This document shows, piece by piece, positions 8,417 through 17,116 of a DNA stretch of 28,075 nt. Location of the stretch: IMG/VR virus record IMGVR_UViG_3300025636_000025, positions 1-28,075 of that record; one strand, 5' to 3'. The position numbers and the translations under genes were made by a program. The stretch comes from a virus. Under the pieces are notes generated by a model that saw only the letters and a program-made list of their open reading frames with translations, did not search any database and had not been told where the DNA came from. The first letter of the stretch is position 1; every line of letters starts with the position of its first letter.

Positions 8417-9682
8417 ATGTCAAACGACGTTGCAACAAAAAAAAGAATTTCACTAAAAAACGAAAACGTGGAATCACAAGAAGTAAAAACTGTAGAAACT
8501 ACAAATGTTAATCAACCATTAGAAAGTTTCGATTGGGATGCATACGCATCAGATTGCCCTTCTAGAAATAGAACGGTAAATGAAAGAATTAATGCACCTT
8601 CCGGTTGGAGAGTATTCTCTAAAGAACCATATGCTGGTGAGTTACTAGATTTAATGCTAGAGCATGAGAATAAAAAACCTTCTCAATTTAAAATTAATGT
8701 AGGTACAACATATACTGGTAAAGTACATAGTGTATCAACTGAGTGGGCATTGATCGATATCAATTATAGAGAAATGATATATGTTGATATGTCTAAAGAA
8801 GATGTTGGGATTAAAGATCAAATCTTACCAAACAGCGAAGTAGATATTCAAATATTGGATAATGGATCTTCAAACAGACGTGGTTTTGTTTTAGGTTCTG
8901 TTAGTGCTGGTATTAAAACTGCTAATTTCAGAGAAATTATGGCATCTATTGAAGATGGATCTACAGCATATACTGGTAAAGTAGGTCAAACTATTCCAGG
9001 CGGTGGATATATCGTAGAAGTTCAAGGAATTGAATGTTTTATGCCAGGTTCACTTGCAGGTATAAATAAACTTGCAGATTTCGAATCTATCGTAGGAACT
9101 GAATTATATGTAGTACCTATGAGTTTTTCAGAACGTAGAGGAACTATTGTAGTTTCACACCGTGAATATTTAAAAGCGATGATTCCTTCTAAAATAGAAG
9201 AATTAAGAGAAAGCTCAGCTGGTCAAATGACTGGTAAAGTAACCGGGACAACTAAGTTTGGTGTATTTGTAGAATTTAACCAGTGTTTAACAGGGATGAT
9301 TCACGTTAATGATTTAACACCAGAACATCTTACAAAACATAAGAGTAGAGAAATAGCACCAGGTGATGATATTACATTTTATGTAAAAGAAATCATTAAT
9401 GATAATAAAATTATATTATCACAGGTTGAAGTTAAAGTAAAAGTAGATCCATGGCGAGATATTGAAGAAAGAATTAAAACTCCAGTTGAAATACAAGGTA
9501 CTGTTAAATCGGTTAAAGATTATGGACTTTTTGTTGAAATTGAAGAAGGTGTTACAGGTTTATTACACGTTTCTGAAATTCAAGATATTATCGATCTTAA
9601 AGATGTTAAATCTGGAGATCCTATTACAGTTCAAGTAACTAGAATTGAATCATCAACTCGTAAAGTATTTTTAAAATTGTAA
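8417..9682 (+). CDS. Ribosomal protein bS1-like RNA-binding protein (rpsA homologue) with four S1 domains
   Basis: The 421-residue protein has a charged tail with an FDWDAY motif, then four S1/OB repeats at ~95-165, 181-255, 266-341 and 355-421. Repeat 2 contains GGYIVEVQGIECFMPGSL, closely resembling domain 2 of bacterial bS1 (GGFTVELNGIRAFLPGSL in E. coli). Repeats 3 and 4 carry classic RNA-binding strands (FGVFVEF...GMIHVNDL and YGLFVEI...GLLHVSEI). In bS1, domains 1-2 dock on the 30S subunit and later domains bind mRNA, so this protein looks like bS1 without domains 5-6. That makes it more specific than a general S1-fold nuclease or exosome factor. It lies alone between a candidate promoter and a terminator. 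Probable roles are directing host ribosomes to phage mRNA or acting with a phage RNase; both are inference. Confidence 0.92.
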   Translation: MSNDVATKKRISLKNENVESQEVKTVETTNVNQPLESFDWDAYASDCPSRNRTVNERINAPSGWRVFSKEPYAGELLDLMLEHENKKPSQFKINVGTTYTGKVHSVSTEWALIDINYREMIYVDMSKEDVGIKDQILPNSEVDIQILDNGSSNRRGFVLGSVSAGIKTANFREIMASIEDGSTAYTGKVGQTIPGGGYIVEVQGIECFMPGSLAGINKLADFESIVGTELYVVPMSFSERRGTIVVSHREYLKAMIPSKIEELRESSAGQMTGKVTGTTKFGVFVEFNQCLTGMIHVNDLTPEHLTKHKSREIAPGDDITFYVKEIINDNKIILSQVEVKVKVDPWRDIEERIKTPVEIQGTVKSVKDYGLFVEIEEGVTGLLHVSEIQDIIDLKDVKSGDPITVQVTRIESSTRKVFLKL

Positions 9683-9706: not shown

Positions 9707-9735
9707 AAAAGGCATCATTTTATGATGCCTTTTTT
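9707..9735 (+). terminator. Strong intrinsic terminator after the bS1-like gene
   Basis: A perfect 12-bp inverted repeat, AAAAGGCATCAT at 9707-9718 and ATGATGCCTTTT at 9722-9733, encloses a TTT loop. The T-run extends from 9730 to 9735. The GGCATCAT/ATGATGCC core stands out in this AT-rich sequence. It lies 24 bases after the stop codon and is the only clear terminator seen in the window. Confidence 0.92.
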
Positions 9736-9750
9736 ATTTAAAATAAATTT

Positions 9751-9763
9751 GAATATATAAACT
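9751..9763 (+). promoter_or_regulatory. Candidate promoter of the amidoligase-like gene (GAATATATAAACT)
   Basis: The motif lies 15 bases after the terminator and 23 bases before the ATG at 9787. Transcription must restart here if the terminator is efficient, which makes this the best-supported of the six promoter candidates. The adjoining TAAATTTG at 9744-9751 also matches the TAnnTTTG -7 element of Bacteroidota primary-sigma promoters. No clear -33 TTG element stands at the right distance. Confidence 0.5.
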
Positions 9764-9786: not shown

Positions 9787-11079
9787 ATGGATAATTTTAA
9801 TAATGCTAATATATTAAAGAATGCACTAGTCGGTGTTGAGTTTGAATTCTATTCAAATTTACCAATTGATGAGACTGCCAAGCAGTTAAAAATAATATTA
9901 GGTAAAAAAATAAGAGTTGAGAGCAAGGCACATAGTGACTTTGAAGTTACTAAAGATGAATTCAAAATAGAACCAGATATGAGTGGTGGTGCTAAACTAA
10001 TGGAATTAGTTACAGGTGCAATACCATATTTTGAAGCTCGTTTGATGATTATCAATGTTTGTAAATGGATTGAAGAAAATGGATATACTAATGACAGGTC
10101 ATCAATACATCTTAATCTATCATTTGATAAAGATAAAATAGGAGATAGATATAGAATTTCTAAAATGAATGTGCTTAAGTTTATTTTAGATTTTAAAGAA
10201 GAGCAAGTATTTAAATTATTTCCAAGTAGAAAAGACTCTGCATACGCTAAATCTATTAAATTTGTATTACCTCGTGAAGATACTTATTTTTTTGATGGTA
10301 ATTATATTAGTGAGAAAAACTTTATATTCCCAGATTCTAAATACTATGGTGTTAATTTTGATAAAAGACATAAAAACTATTTAGAATTTAGATATATCGG
10401 AGGTAAAGATTGGGAAAAGAAGACTAACAATATTTTATATATGTTAGATCAATTCTTAATTCAATTATGGAATTCAACATCCTCTAAAAATTTTACTAAT
10501 TTAAATTCACTTGAATTAAAAAAAATACTGGCAAAAAATAAAAGGATTATTGATGCTAGATTGGATTGGAGTGTGATAGAAAGAGAGTGGAAAAACGTTG
10601 AATTTACAGTTGATTTAGTAAAAGTACCTCAAATTATAAATATATATTGGGCAAATATTAAAGATAGAGTCATTAAGCTTTTTACACATGGTGAATTAAC
10701 AAAAGGCCATATTAATTATGATACAGATCTTGGTAAAGTACAGGTTAATGGTGGTAAATTAAATTATTGTGTAGAAATTACAGGTTATGACTTTTTAGAA
10801 TGTGATCTGGCGGGTGAATTTTCATATTGTGATATTTTTAGATCTAATATTAATGGATCAGATATTACTGATTGTAATTTCTACGATTCTACAAAAATTA
10901 ATTCATCTAAAATTAAAAGTTCATATGTTAATAGAAGCTGTGAACTAGATGACTGCTATGTCTATGGTAATGGTGTTATGAAGGGTAAAATGACTGGTGG
11001 TATTTTTAGAGAAGGTAATTATGATAAAAAAACAGCTAGGTTTGACGGTACTGAAATTATATTGTCAAACGAAATATAA
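9787..11079 (+). CDS. Amidoligase-like enzyme fused to C-terminal pentapeptide-like repeats
   Basis: Residues ~13-215 carry the pattern of the amidoligase (COOH-NH2 ligase, glutamine-synthetase-like) family: VGVEFEF (15-21), IEPDMSG...MELVTG (61-77), SSIHLNLSF (105-113) and NYLEFRYIGG (197-206). The acidic residues E18, E20, E62, D64, E73 and E200, with H108 and R202, are candidates for Mg-ATP and substrate binding. This family joins carboxylates to amines using ATP. Residues ~215-315 form a helical linker. Residues ~318-425 are short imperfect repeats (YDFLECDL, FRSNI, NGSDI, TDCNF, KIKSSYV, DDCYV) typical of a pentapeptide beta-helix, perhaps a protein-binding scaffold. The substrate is unknown; peptide, protein and cell-wall targets are all possible. 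The next gene follows 15 bases later and is probably co-transcribed. Confidence 0.75.
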   Translation: MDNFNNANILKNALVGVEFEFYSNLPIDETAKQLKIILGKKIRVESKAHSDFEVTKDEFKIEPDMSGGAKLMELVTGAIPYFEARLMIINVCKWIEENGYTNDRSSIHLNLSFDKDKIGDRYRISKMNVLKFILDFKEEQVFKLFPSRKDSAYAKSIKFVLPREDTYFFDGNYISEKNFIFPDSKYYGVNFDKRHKNYLEFRYIGGKDWEKKTNNILYMLDQFLIQLWNSTSSKNFTNLNSLELKKILAKNKRIIDARLDWSVIEREWKNVEFTVDLVKVPQIINIYWANIKDRVIKLFTHGELTKGHINYDTDLGKVQVNGGKLNYCVEITGYDFLECDLAGEFSYCDIFRSNINGSDITDCNFYDSTKINSSKIKSSYVNRSCELDDCYVYGNGVMKGKMTGGIFREGNYDKKTARFDGTEIILSNEI

Positions 11080-11941: not shown

Positions 11942-12295
11942 ATGGAATTTTATGTAAAAAATATAGGTGATCCTAAATATCAAAGTGATAAACTACAACA
12001 AGATAATGAAATATCTATGCTATTATCACAGATAGAAACTGTTCTTTTTACAAGAAGAGGTGATGTATTAGGTAAACCAGAATTTGGTACAAATTTAGAA
12101 GATTATGTATACGAGTTACAATATAATAATTATCAAATTAAAAATATAGTTAGTAAGCAAATATCATCATATATTCCACTTGCTAGTAAATATAACGTTG
12201 CAGTTGAGGTTGATTTTATAGAAGATTCAACTAGATATGTGATGTTTTTAGACATTACCGTAGATGCTACAATAAAAATGGGTATTTACATTTAA
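11942..12295 (+). CDS. 25: Baseplate wedge protein gp25-like (sheath-initiator)
   Basis: The length (117 residues) and sequence fit the gp25/GpW-type wedge family. After an N-terminal helix (NEISMLLSQIETVLFTRRG, 22-40) come PEFGTNL (46-52) and DYVYE, aligning with T4 gp25 LLGIITTRKG...PEFGCDLSDQLFE. The second half has the helix KNIVSKQISSYIPLASKYNV and two strands, as in the family. In T4, gp25 joins gp6 and gp53 in the wedge core and nucleates the sheath; despite an old 'lysozyme' label it is structural. It is followed 17 bases later by the gp6/J-like gene, the conserved order in contractile systems. This is the most secure marker that the tail is contractile. Confidence 0.93.
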   Translation: MEFYVKNIGDPKYQSDKLQQDNEISMLLSQIETVLFTRRGDVLGKPEFGTNLEDYVYELQYNNYQIKNIVSKQISSYIPLASKYNVAVEVDFIEDSTRYVMFLDITVDATIKMGIYI

Positions 12296-12312: not shown

Positions 12313-14133
12313 ATGGCAGAATTTAAATTCTTATCAACAGCTAGAGTTAAGGCGAATGAAATGATTAATGACACTCGTACTTATATTACTCGACTATACG
12401 GAAGAACTGGTGAACTTTTTACCACAGCTTCACCGTTTTCTCAAATATTAGAGGTATTGAGTGATATATCTAAATTGATATTATTCTATGTTGAAGATGC
12501 AACGGTTGAACAAAATATATTAACAGCACAACAGCCTGAATCTATATATGGACTATCTAGATTAACTGGACATGATGCTTTTAGAGGTGCAAGTGCTATG
12601 GGTGAAATTAAAGTTCGTTTAAACGTTACTTCATCAATAGAAATTGCAGGTGATGCACTTAATATTCCAGCAAATACTATAATAAAATCTAATACTAACG
12701 GTTTAAAATATATTTTAAAAACAAATAGTGATCAATTTAGAATTGATAAGAGTAATGCCGAATACATTTATATTCCAGTTATCCAGGGTGAAATAGAAAC
12801 ACAAACTGTAACCGGAACAGGTGAAAAATTACAGTCATTTAATATTATAACTAGAAAGGCAACCGATCATCATTCAGTTAAAGTTAGTGTTAATAGCGAA
12901 TTATGGACCAAATATGATTCATTATACGATATGAAACAAGATACTAGAGGATATTTAGTTAAAACTGGAATTACAGGAGGGTTAGATATTTATTTCGGTA
13001 ATGGTTCTTTTGGTATGATACCAGTTGAAGGTGCATCTATTACTATAGAATATTTAAAAACTGATGGAACTTTAGGTGATTTATCAGGTTCTAAAGATTT
13101 AGTTTTTAAATTTGAAACTGAAGGTTCAGATTCTTTAGCTAATGTATATGATTTAAATGAAGTGTTAGAATCTTCATTTACAGTAGCTCCAAGATTAGGT
13201 GCAAATCCTGAAAATATAGAGTTAACTAAATTAATTGCACCACTACAATCAAACTCATTTGTGTTAGCAACTCCAGACAATTACGAACACTTTTTATCTA
13301 GATATGGTATGTTCTCTTATTTAGATGCATATAATACAACCGATGATGGTTATTTAGATGATGATAACGTGATTTATTTGTTTATGTTACCAGATACTAA
13401 AAGAAAATTAACTAAAAATAAAGACTATTTTAATTTAGATTTAAATGAATTTTTCTTTTCTAGTGATGAAAAGAATGGTATTTTACAATTACTTGAAAAT
13501 TCTGGCCAACAAATGGTAACTACTGAAGTTAAAATAGTAGAACCGAGCCTACAATATTTTAGAATGGATATTAAGGTAAGATATTTTGAAGGTTTTGAAA
13601 AATCTAATTTGTATAATGAAATTAGATCTAGAATTTCTAATTATTTAATTAATATTACTAGACGTGATCGACTACCAGCATCTGATATTATTGCATTATT
13701 AGAAGGAATTGAAGGAATTGATTCTGTAAATGTTAAATTTACTTCAAAGGCAGAAGAAGATGCTAGAAGAAATGGGTATTATATAAACAAGACAGTAACT
13801 GTAACTCCGTCAACGCCAGTATTAGAAGATATTGGAAATGGTAAACAGAAATTTGTTTTCTTTAAAAGAACAGTAACTGAACAAAAAATTAATATAGAAC
13901 CTGGGCAGGCAATGCCTGAAAATGTAATTAACTTAGATTCTTTTGGCGATATACTATTAGAAAAAGAAGAAGTTGCACTTTTTAGAGGCGGTTGGCAAGA
14001 CAGAACTGGAGCTGAAGTACTAGATGATGTAAAAATGGGTGAAATGGCAGCTCTTTCAGTTTATTTTGATGAACCTGCAGTTAAAAATACTATATTTACA
14101 CAAATACAAGCAAAAAATAGAAGAGCATTATAA
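12313..14133 (+). CDS. Baseplate wedge protein gp6 / baseplate-J-like
   Basis: This 606-residue protein lies directly after gp25, the expected gp6/J position. Residues ~20-95 (TRLYGRTGELFTTASPFSQI, then LFYVEDATVEQN) form the helical N-terminus that in gp6/J packs against partner wedge subunits. A beta-rich centre follows, including a GGLDIYFGNGSFGMIP segment (~218-235). Residues ~410-475 contain the typical J-like tail domain: two strands (LQYFRMDIKVRYFEG), a helix with LYNEIRSRISNYL, then SDIIALLEGIEGIDSVNVKF. Length is close to T4 gp6 (660 residues). In the family this protein forms the ring holding the baseplate and triggering sheath contraction. It overlaps the next gene by one base. Confidence 0.88.
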   Translation: MAEFKFLSTARVKANEMINDTRTYITRLYGRTGELFTTASPFSQILEVLSDISKLILFYVEDATVEQNILTAQQPESIYGLSRLTGHDAFRGASAMGEIKVRLNVTSSIEIAGDALNIPANTIIKSNTNGLKYILKTNSDQFRIDKSNAEYIYIPVIQGEIETQTVTGTGEKLQSFNIITRKATDHHSVKVSVNSELWTKYDSLYDMKQDTRGYLVKTGITGGLDIYFGNGSFGMIPVEGASITIEYLKTDGTLGDLSGSKDLVFKFETEGSDSLANVYDLNEVLESSFTVAPRLGANPENIELTKLIAPLQSNSFVLATPDNYEHFLSRYGMFSYLDAYNTTDDGYLDDDNVIYLFMLPDTKRKLTKNKDYFNLDLNEFFFSSDEKNGILQLLENSGQQMVTTEVKIVEPSLQYFRMDIKVRYFEGFEKSNLYNEIRSRISNYLINITRRDRLPASDIIALLEGIEGIDSVNVKFTSKAEEDARRNGYYINKTVTVTPSTPVLEDIGNGKQKFVFFKRTVTEQKINIEPGQAMPENVINLDSFGDILLEKEEVALFRGGWQDRTGAEVLDDVKMGEMAALSVYFDEPAVKNTIFTQIQAKNRRAL

Positions 14134-14399: not shown

Positions 14400-17116
14400 T
14401 GGCATACAATAAATTAAGATTTTACGATAGTGATTCTAATGAATTGAACCTGGTCCAAAATAATGGCATCTGGGAAGGTACTGTATATTTACCATTAGTT
14501 TCTACTGGACTTTATGAAACGTTGACTCTACATATCTTAGAAGAGGTCAAGGGTGATCTTGGCGGTACTCAATATGTTAAACCGATTGCAGAAACACCTG
14601 GTAATTTTAAATTTGAATTTGAATTTAAATTAAATTACGGTGATAGTGAAGACATATACTTATATAGTGCCAAATCTGAAATGGGTGAATTATATGTTAG
14701 CATAGATAAAACTCAATCTGAAGATATTTTACCATCTACCACTGCTATTTCAACTGATAATGGATTTAAAGTTGTTGATAGTAATCTAAAAGCACTTCCA
14801 ATAATTTCTAGGATGACATTAAGTTCTGAAGTTGAAGGTTTTCATATTAGAACACTTAACATCTATGAAAATTTAAATGGTGTTAGAGGTGCTAAAATAG
14901 CTAGTATTAAAGTTTACGGTGAAGTTGAAGGTGAAGATGAAAGACTAAAGGTTTTATTAACCAATATGGGAATGAACCTAGATACCACAGACTTTTATAT
15001 TTTTAAAAGCTCAGATATACAAGAAGGTTCTCCGGATTTTACGATCTTAAATGAAAAACGTAAAGAATTACTATTACAAGCCTCACAAATCAAACCATTT
15101 ATTGGAACTTACAAAGCTCTATTACATGCAATTGATTTTTTCGGATATGATAAATTAACTCTAAAAGAGTATTGGTTAAACATTAATGAAAATGCAGAGA
15201 ACTTTGGTAAACTTAAAGCCGTTGCAGTTCCAAACCAAGATGTAGTTGGATTTTTAGCTGATAAAAATAAAGGTAACGATTTACCAAATAGTAATCAAAA
15301 GAAAACTTCTAGATTTTCATTAGTCTATCGAATCAATGCACCAACCGGGGAGTTTGATGAATGGGATATTCCTCGAGTTGAAGAGACTTTAGATTTTTCA
15401 CCAGATGAAGTATTAATTAAACTATACGGTTTAAAGAATAAACTACAACGTCAATATTTACCACTACAAGCAAAAATTGTAGATATTACAGGTGAAGCTG
15501 ATTATTTTTCACAGTTTAATCAAAATATATGGAATAACCAACATGCTATTAAAAACCAACAAGCCGGTGTAGAATTTGATTTTGACTTAACACCGAGTGG
15601 CAGAAATATATTTATCGAAGATTTACGTAAAGTTGATTATAGATTAACTGGACTTTCGCAAGATTTTAATAATTTAAATGAACGACCTGAAATTAGCGAG
15701 TCGATTAAAGACTTTTATAGTACTTATTATAATGAACCATTAGATACTTTTAATACTGTAGATGGAATTCCAATTGGAGCACCTATTGTTTTAGAATTAA
15801 CAGAGATGGGTGATACTTGGGATGATGCTAAATTTACATGGATGGATGCTGAAGATACTGGTAATCATCATTTGCAATGGAATAACTGGTGGCATCGTAA
15901 TGTATATGAGGTTGAATGGGTTTTAAGAGGTCCAAGAAACTATTTTAAAGCCTTTAGAGGAGCTATTGAAGATTATAAAGTATTTCCATTAGTCTTACCA
16001 TTTGATGGGACATATACAGTTGATGCTAACTTATACGATCTATATAATGTTAAAAGTACTAAAACTAAAAAGGATCTAATTGAAGTTAAAAATAAAGCTG
16101 TTGAAGTCTATGGACTAACACAATTTGCCGGTAAGAAATTAAACTGGAATGAATACAAATACACTTGGAATTCTGCTGGTGGTTCTTGGGATTGGAGTAG
16201 AGTAAATACTTCTACCGTAGAAGATTCTATTGCTACTTATTATTTAACACTAGATCGTGCTAATTATATCACAGATGATTCTAAAGGTGCTGAATTTTCA
16301 ACAGTTCGTAGATTTTTAGATTCAACTCAACCTAGTGGATTTAATGAAACACCAGGACCATACCAATGGCGAGAATTATTAGAACATGTTTGGAACGATG
16401 GACCTGAGGTAACTTGGAACATGACGAGAGTTGGTGGTGATATTAATTCATCTTTTAAAATAAAATTAAATGGTTATTCAAACGGTTATAATTTAGAAAT
16501 TACACAGATTAATTCGGTTAATAATGAAATATCATCAGATTCTTATAAAATACAAGCAACATATCCAGTTGATAATCTAGATTTAGCAGCTTGGCAAGCG
16601 ATTGCAATTGAATTAAATAGCCTAGATCCAATTCAACATCCAATCTTAAGTAGATTTAACTATAATGAGATACTAGTTGATAATGTGTCTGGCGGTGCTG
16701 GCCCACAAGAAGAAGATATATGTGAATATATTTTAGCCGTAGGTAAAGAACCGAGTAGGAGTTATGATTTTAATACTGTTTCATTTAATACCACACTCGG
16801 TGGTGAAATAACAGATAAAATTAACTTCACCAGCTATAATCCAAGTTTTGATGATACATATGTTATAAATTCACAGGCAACATTACACATATTGAATCAT
16901 TTAACGTTTTCGTATGATTTAAGTAATATGCCAGGTATAGTTGCTCAACAATGGAGATTAATAAATAACACCTTAAATAAAGATGATATATATTATAATA
17001 ATCAATGGTTGACTTATTTGTTTAAGTACAAAGGTGATTATACAATTGAATTAGAATTGACTGATTCAAATGGAAATAAGAACAAAACAACTAAAAATAT
17101 TTTAAAAATAGTTTAA
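14399..17116 (+). CDS. Large gpI/gp7-like wedge protein with Trp-rich segments and PKD-like domains
   Basis: The protein has 905 residues in the slot where phages with gp25-J order carry the I/gp7 subunit. The N-terminal ~200 residues are beta-rich. Residues ~218-258 hold a helical segment (EKRKELLLQASQIKPFIGTY, then FFGYDKLTLKEYW) resembling the conserved helical part of I-type tail proteins. Three Trp-rich stretches follow at ~471-505, 582-603 and 655-675 (TWDDAKFTW...WNNWWH; NWNEYKYTWNSAGGSWDW; QWRELLEHVWNDGPEVTW). PKD-like beta sandwiches seem to lie at ~500-560 (LPFDGTYTVDANLYDLYN) and at the C-terminus, ~805-905 (YKGDYTIELELTDSNGN). Exposed PKD and Trp-rich parts suggest sugar or surface contact. 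The wedge role rests on position and the helical segment. Confidence 0.6.
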   Translation: MAYNKLRFYDSDSNELNLVQNNGIWEGTVYLPLVSTGLYETLTLHILEEVKGDLGGTQYVKPIAETPGNFKFEFEFKLNYGDSEDIYLYSAKSEMGELYVSIDKTQSEDILPSTTAISTDNGFKVVDSNLKALPIISRMTLSSEVEGFHIRTLNIYENLNGVRGAKIASIKVYGEVEGEDERLKVLLTNMGMNLDTTDFYIFKSSDIQEGSPDFTILNEKRKELLLQASQIKPFIGTYKALLHAIDFFGYDKLTLKEYWLNINENAENFGKLKAVAVPNQDVVGFLADKNKGNDLPNSNQKKTSRFSLVYRINAPTGEFDEWDIPRVEETLDFSPDEVLIKLYGLKNKLQRQYLPLQAKIVDITGEADYFSQFNQNIWNNQHAIKNQQAGVEFDFDLTPSGRNIFIEDLRKVDYRLTGLSQDFNNLNERPEISESIKDFYSTYYNEPLDTFNTVDGIPIGAPIVLELTEMGDTWDDAKFTWMDAEDTGNHHLQWNNWWHRNVYEVEWVLRGPRNYFKAFRGAIEDYKVFPLVLPFDGTYTVDANLYDLYNVKSTKTKKDLIEVKNKAVEVYGLTQFAGKKLNWNEYKYTWNSAGGSWDWSRVNTSTVEDSIATYYLTLDRANYITDDSKGAEFSTVRRFLDSTQPSGFNETPGPYQWRELLEHVWNDGPEVTWNMTRVGGDINSSFKIKLNGYSNGYNLEITQINSVNNEISSDSYKIQATYPVDNLDLAAWQAIAIELNSLDPIQHPILSRFNYNEILVDNVSGGAGPQEEDICEYILAVGKEPSRSYDFNTVSFNTTLGGEITDKINFTSYNPSFDDTYVINSQATLHILNHLTFSYDLSNMPGIVAQQWRLINNTLNKDDIYYNNQWLTYLFKYKGDYTIELELTDSNGNKNKTTKNILKIV

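Follow-up and report, generated by a model that had tools for sequence, protein, structure and literature searches.

Amidoligases of the Amidoligase_2 family are known from LUZ24/phiEco32-like phages. In UFV-P2 and LUZ24-like phages, the gene lies in an early module together with glutamine amidotransferase, ATP-grasp and GGCT-like genes (PMC3890496), and passages of two reports propose a role at the cell wall or cell surface for the phiEco32-type enzyme (PMC10580990, PMC11318856). A precedent for protein targets is provided by the Pup ligase PafA, a carboxylate-amine ligase derived from glutamine synthetase (GS) that acts on proteins (PMC3511204). In the titles, abstracts and selected passages of the open-licence literature, no paper was found that links an amidoligase to virion assembly.

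Here, we describe an amidoligase-like gene in a 28,075-nucleotide stretch of viral DNA (hereafter, the window), which comes from a genome recorded as a fragment of 28 kb. As with the LUZ24/phiEco32-like proteins, its product matches PF12224 above the cut-off, and the motifs GxExE, D...E, HxN and ExR are near invariant among its relatives. Different here are the fusion to a predicted beta-helix, the setting in a late structural module and the existence of syntenic orthologs that have lost the active site. PafA differs in having a small C-terminal domain and in using the peptide Pup as its partner. Inspection of the window by eye revealed no gene resembling Pup.

Another point of comparison is AUZ94978.1 of Agrobacterium phage Atu_ph07 (L061, positions 14467-15969), annotated as hypothetical, which is 26% identical over residues 42-227, carries an Amidoligase_2 domain and is encoded two genes from the portal gene. 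It differs in its length (500 aa), in its C-terminus, where no beta-helix was detected, and in lying on the strand opposite to the portal gene. Its number, which we infer to be gp196 by counting from the portal protein (gp198, AUZ94980.1), falls inside the CDS 170-215 cluster; this cluster is reported to be rich in virion proteins, and the virion proteome comprises 131 proteins (PMC6102473).

Domain architecture and predicted fold

The gene and the predicted parts of its product are as follows.

9787-11079, plus strand: amidoligase/beta-helix protein gene (ORF call, ATG start, 430 aa; Amidoligase_2 above the Pfam cut-off; AlphaFold2 model m28cf1b53ca1d)
9787-10491, plus strand: glutamine-synthetase-fold domain, about residues 1-235 (Foldseek and VIA matches, residue conservation)
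9838-9840, 9844-9846, 9976-9978 and 10003-10005, plus strand: catalytic-type codons E18, E20, D64 and E73
10108-10110, 10114-10116, 10384-10386 and 10390-10392, plus strand: catalytic-type codons H108, N110, E200 and R202
10498-10686, plus strand: helical linker between the two domains, residues 238-300 (DSSP of the model)
10693-11076, plus strand: right-handed pentapeptide-type beta-helix, residues 303-430, with near-invariant N310, K375 and R408 (separate model mffe837cbc978, lag-5 periodicity)

Residues 13-66 of the window protein match Amidoligase_2 (PF12224) at 26.3 bits against a curated Pfam cut-off of 22. Six close relatives score from 17.8 to 32.6 bits, the best match spanning residues 13-213 and some falling just under the cut-off, and a match at E <= 0.01 is seen in 16 of 41 diverse members that are 30-84% identical to the window protein. 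Applied alone to whole genomes, PF12224 overlooks most members of the family, so absence by this profile is uninformative. PHROGs yielded no family for the window protein, and for its relatives weak or unknown ones only.

Structure prediction with AlphaFold2, using an alignment of the 41 family members, gave a model of the full 430 aa with a pLDDT of 90.8 and a pTM of 0.81. Foldseek searches of the PDB returned glutamine synthetases with a probability near 1.0, and all 50 of 50 VIA-align rows were glutamine synthetases or GS-type amide synthetases (Z 10-11 over about 190 residues, rmsd 3.2-4.2 A). The catalytic-domain fold is thus common to this family, glutamine synthetase and the gamma-glutamyl-amide synthetases. 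Because the alignment begins at about GS residue 105 and runs onward from there, the N-terminal beta-grasp domain of GS is apparently lacking. A profile comparison between the family and E. coli GlnA gave no signal, and the relationship to GS therefore rests on Pfam and fold. Judging from the Pfam match and the model, the protein is almost certainly a relative of the glutamine-synthetase-fold amidoligases.

The C-terminal 128 residues, modelled alone, reached a pLDDT of 95.8 and matched beta-solenoids including AlbG, MfpA and Qnr (Z about 8-10), with short strands about every five residues. Hydrophobicity across residues 318-412 shows a lag-5 autocorrelation of 0.34 in the family (P = 0.0005; P = 0.002 for the window protein alone), and no such period is found in the N-terminal domain. 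Periodicity, model and structural matches all point to a right-handed beta-helix with 5-residue faces. Sequence profiles are less emphatic: Pentapeptide_4 matches 21 of the 41 relatives at E <= 0.01 (best E 8.7e-7), below the Pfam cut-off wherever one is shown. The best pentapeptide scores in relatives are 26.8 against 38 bits for PF13599 and 17.3 against 20.2 bits for PF00805, and the window protein itself has no Pfam pentapeptide match at E 1. Residues 303-430 are predicted to share the fold of MfpA, AlbG and Qnr (Z about 9) and differ from these proteins in their irregular repeats, sub-cut-off Pfam scores and fusion to an enzyme. A role as a gyrase mimic of the MfpA/Qnr type was considered and rejected, having fold similarity in its favour but no support from context.

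In the BFVD database, one viral protein matches both domains together over its full length (TM 0.82), which argues that the fusion is a trait of the family; dozens of phage proteins named "amidoligase enzyme" were matched as well.

A preliminary description, made from the letters of the window, had proposed that about 200 N-terminal residues keep the acidic, His and Arg positions of an ATP-dependent ligase and that the C-terminus consists of pentapeptide-like repeats. Both proposals are borne out by the Amidoligase_2 score, the confidently predicted folds, the lag-5 period and the conservation described below, with the qualification that the pentapeptide profiles detect the repeats in about half of the relatives, at sub-cut-off scores wherever a cut-off is shown, and leave the window protein unmatched.

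Conservation of the active site

Across the 41 diverse sequences, G16, E18, E20, D64, S66, G68, E73, N110, E200 and R202 are invariant, as are K131, E138, R148, K185, Y186, Y187 and N190, while H108 is present in 40; E62, also named in the preliminary description, is almost invariant. The order of these residues (E-x-E, D...E, H-x-N, E-x-R) is that of the known GS metal and phosphate ligands. In a larger set of 183 distinct members, derived from 305 matches, the eight core residues are retained in about 175. Wherever the sequence is complete and aligned they are kept, with five exceptions: L228 (H108Q), L267 (N110S), L280, L303 and L304. Conservation and fold together make it highly probable that the protein is catalytically active in most lineages.

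Among the exceptions, L228 (positions 1560-2963) is a phage fragment that has been binned as a Deltaproteobacteria MAG; it carries the S1, amidoligase, adaptor, gp25 and gp6 genes, and the Q at the H108 position of its amidoligase is perhaps halfway to loss of activity.

Genomic neighbourhood and transcription unit

The gene is surrounded by the following features.

8417-9682, plus strand: upstream neighbour, multi-S1-domain protein, ribosomal-S1-like (Pfam S1; NCBIfam ribosomal S1 models)
9707-9733, plus strand: intrinsic-terminator-like hairpin in the gap between the S1 and amidoligase genes (12 pairs, then T residues)
9754-9761, plus strand: late-promoter-like TATATAAA element, ending 25 nt before the start codon
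11095-11925, plus strand: downstream neighbour, head-tail adaptor, Ad2-like (phrog_211, E 9.7e-11)
11942-12295, plus strand: gp25-like baseplate wedge (phrog_43; Pfam GPW_gp25 below cut-off)
12313-14133, plus strand: gp6-like baseplate wedge (phrog_219, E 2.8e-34)

The gene had been placed between hub and wedge genes; wedge genes do lie downstream, but its immediate flanks are the S1 and adaptor genes, and hub-like genes are found further upstream. In marine relatives, the order S1, amidoligase, adaptor, gp25, gp6 is constant. To gauge core status, 80 loci were chosen by their gp6 wedge gene rather than by the amidoligase, and the amidoligase was found in its expected place in 74, which are all of the loci that reach that place. 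Of the six loci without it, five have their first base within the adaptor gene or beyond it, and one, L230, represents the LR756500-type genome, whose amidoligase gene is known to lie just upstream. The L062-led neck alignment was set aside because its sequences diverge too far for scanning.

Huge phages retain the gene as well: each of five genomes between 462 and 735 kb has it once, at full length, and the four largest agree in size with those given as the largest phage genomes in PMC7162821. Structural genes are scattered in these genomes, up to hundreds of kb from one another (in LR756501, adaptor at 455 kb, gp947 at 634 kb and gp25 at 705 kb). In four of the five, the amidoligase nevertheless lies within 3 kb of a homolog of the adaptor, gp25 or gp947. 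A rough calculation puts some 4% of a genome of this kind that near to the three markers, and the genomes are related and thus not independent. The exception is LR756501 (735 kb), where the amidoligase is not near any of the three. Fixed adjacency to the adaptor gene was rejected for huge phages, being broken in three of the five genomes, and the claim is therefore limited to nearness to some structural gene.

A separate feature of the huge-phage loci (L063-L066 and L147-L189) is a leader of the MKYLKTFEDF or MKIKKFNEF kind at the N-terminus of many otherwise unrelated ORFs, found in 63 of 889 there versus 2 of 1887 in marine loci. By analogy with T4 capsid-targeting sequences, of which it is reminiscent, this leader could mark proteins packaged in the head.

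At least 562 relatives were confirmed in viral contigs, compared with two matches in 84,980 prokaryote genomes, at least one of which is itself a piece of phage DNA that carries the usual flanking genes. Taken as a whole, the gene is very probably a core late-module gene in large T4-like myophages of one widespread lineage.

The immediate upstream sequence suggests that transcription is organised accordingly. The hairpin is notable for its position and not its count, since one was found in the 6.2 kb region against 1.1 expected from shuffles; similar hairpins are visible upstream of the gene in several relatives. The TATATAAA element and its TATATAA form resemble TATAAATA, the late promoter of T4. 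In 96 of 149 distinct relatives, TATATAA is present in the 70 nt that precede the gene, against a mean of 18.7 and a maximum of 26 in 50 dinucleotide shuffles, and its positions peak some 23 and 36 nt ahead of the start codon. TATATAA also precedes 81% of S1, 61% of gp947 and 57% of gp25 genes, compared with 1-6% for most internal genes. With hairpin and element upstream and a gap of only 15 nt to the adaptor gene downstream, the amidoligase gene appears, from these sequence signals, to head the adaptor/wedge transcription unit. Its position and the common promoter-like element suggest co-expression with the structural genes, which is distinct from physical presence in the virion. As TATATAA marks the starts of several structural units, it could also help to map the late regulon of the lineage.

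The S1-like neighbour is an unusual protein for the structural cluster of a phage. Residues 80-420 of its 421 match NCBIfam ribosomal S1 models (E 5.9e-45, far under the equivalog cut-offs), and its gene usually has a TATATAA of its own in relatives. RimK glutamylates ribosomal protein S6, and a RimK-like modifier of the translation machinery, partnered with the S1-like protein, would fit the constancy of this upstream neighbour in the marine lineage. We regard this as very improbable, given that the S1 gene has its own element, that a terminator-like hairpin separates the two genes in the window and that the S1 gene lies away from the amidoligase in the majority of huge phages.

Metabolic partner genes were also sought and rejected: GATase_6 is absent from six related whole phage genomes, and GGACT is present in three of the six, far from the amidoligase in each. 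This bears on the proposal, published for other phage amidoligases (PMC10580990, PMC11318856), that such enzymes place amide-linked groups on cell-wall or surface peptides of the host, for example to exclude other phages. Membership of the same Pfam family as the phiEco32-type proteins speaks for a host-surface enzyme here. The early-module setting in UFV-P2/LUZ24-like phages (PMC3890496) contrasts with the head of a structural unit in the present lineage, GATase_6 and GGACT are missing or distant in the six genomes, and orthologs maintained by purifying selection after loss of the active site are hard to fit, all of which leaves a surface role improbable. Invariant position, late-type element, restriction to phages and the lack of a GATase companion in six genomes instead amount to the behaviour of an assembly gene. 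The function appears tied to the late/virion module rather than to metabolism.

Orthologs without the active site

Three full-length orthologs (L280, L303 and L304; HMM E 5e-77 to 8e-84) lie between the S1 and adaptor genes yet lack nearly all of the catalytic-type residues. E18 is replaced by T or I, E73 by T, H or R, H108 by Y or F, N110 by D or I, E200 by R or V, and R202 by Q or K, with E20 and D64 retained or lost, varying by case; the Amidoligase_2 domain is no longer recognised by Pfam. Assemblies of two samples contain the L304 type, which is joined by one 91% identical variant, which argues that these dead orthologs are real. The set is small (three distinct sequences plus this variant), and its tree, with support of 91/86 for one clade and long branches, is compatible with one or two losses. 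No second amidoligase copy was found in the contigs concerned, which are partial genomes of up to 254 kb.

Between L304 and L312, dN is 0.056 and dS 0.80 (dN/dS about 0.07 within that lineage), and for the catalytically dead GS core alone the values are 0.033 and 0.67. Such strong purifying selection argues that the dead fold is still useful. A non-catalytic function thus exists and catalysis is not the whole story, although the dead orthologs could act by binding a nucleotide or other ligand rather than by building anything.

Retention of dead orthologs in place, next to adaptor and wedge genes, would also suit a purely structural protein, in which the GS fold would serve throughout the family as an exapted component of the virion, its conserved residues merely binding metal or nucleotide. 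This is nevertheless unlikely, because some 175 distinct relatives, with identities as low as 30%, retain eight catalytic-type residues that a mere building block would not need.

The opposite possibility, in which catalysis serves small-molecule metabolism, is a gamma-glutamyl amide or polyamine ligase acting late in infection on nucleotide, DNA-modification or glutamate pools. Its fold, shared with glutamine synthetase and the gamma-glutamyl-amide synthetases, would suit such chemistry. Invariant linkage to assembly genes, the fused beta-helix, the near absence of cellular relatives and the retained dead orthologs make this reading quite improbable, and the preliminary view that a glutamate-pool role was equally open has lost ground.

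Loss of the active site is accompanied by changes elsewhere in the protein. In all dead orthologs, 21 amidoligase columns that are invariant in live members are altered, against 0-2 per adjacent gene at comparable loci. These 21 include the active site as well as K375 and R408, two beta-helix residues that hardly vary elsewhere, and their joint disappearance suggests that the beta-helix is coupled to catalysis or to the substrate. E76 of gp6 was considered as a target residue lost along with the active site and rejected; it is altered in all dead lineages, but is N, A or V in live ones too.

Proposed function

It is likely that the protein has a role in the virion or its assembly. A dual role, in which a late protein of virion assembly doubles in most phages as an active amide ligase driven by ATP, stands at about an even chance. 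In its non-catalytic capacity, the folded protein would most likely bind or scaffold a neck or baseplate component, either during assembly or by staying in the virion. In most lineages, it would additionally form an amide bond at the expense of ATP, via an acyl-phosphate in the manner of glutamine synthetase, so that an amine becomes linked to a carboxylate (that of Glu, Asp or a C-terminus). The likeliest target would be a protein of the virion or of its assembly, and the beta-helix may take part in the reaction or hold its target. That the ligation target is specifically a virion protein is plausible, if slightly short of an even chance. The ligase reading of the preliminary description stands as regards an amidoligase of GS fold, but not as the whole function, in view of the dead syntenic orthologs under purifying selection. 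For most phages, we favour an active ATP-dependent ligase whose partner probably belongs to the virion or to its assembly.

More speculatively, and somewhat doubtful at present, neck and baseplate assembly up to the largest phages may include an enzymatic, ATP-dependent amide-bond step (a tag or cross-link) made by a ligase docked through its beta-helix, with a few lineages keeping a docking or scaffold pseudoenzyme only.

Conclusions

The usual classification of phage amidoligases is with auxiliary metabolic genes or genes for the cell surface. The gene described here instead belongs consistently to a late structural module, in a lineage that spans marine T4-like phages and genomes of up to 735 kb. 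The dead orthologs of its product signify a function beyond catalysis and, together with the live ones, constitute a natural experiment for finding the substrate. If the protein does modify or scaffold a part of the virion, it would represent an unrecognised step in the assembly of contractile-tailed phages and a rare viral pseudoenzyme series.
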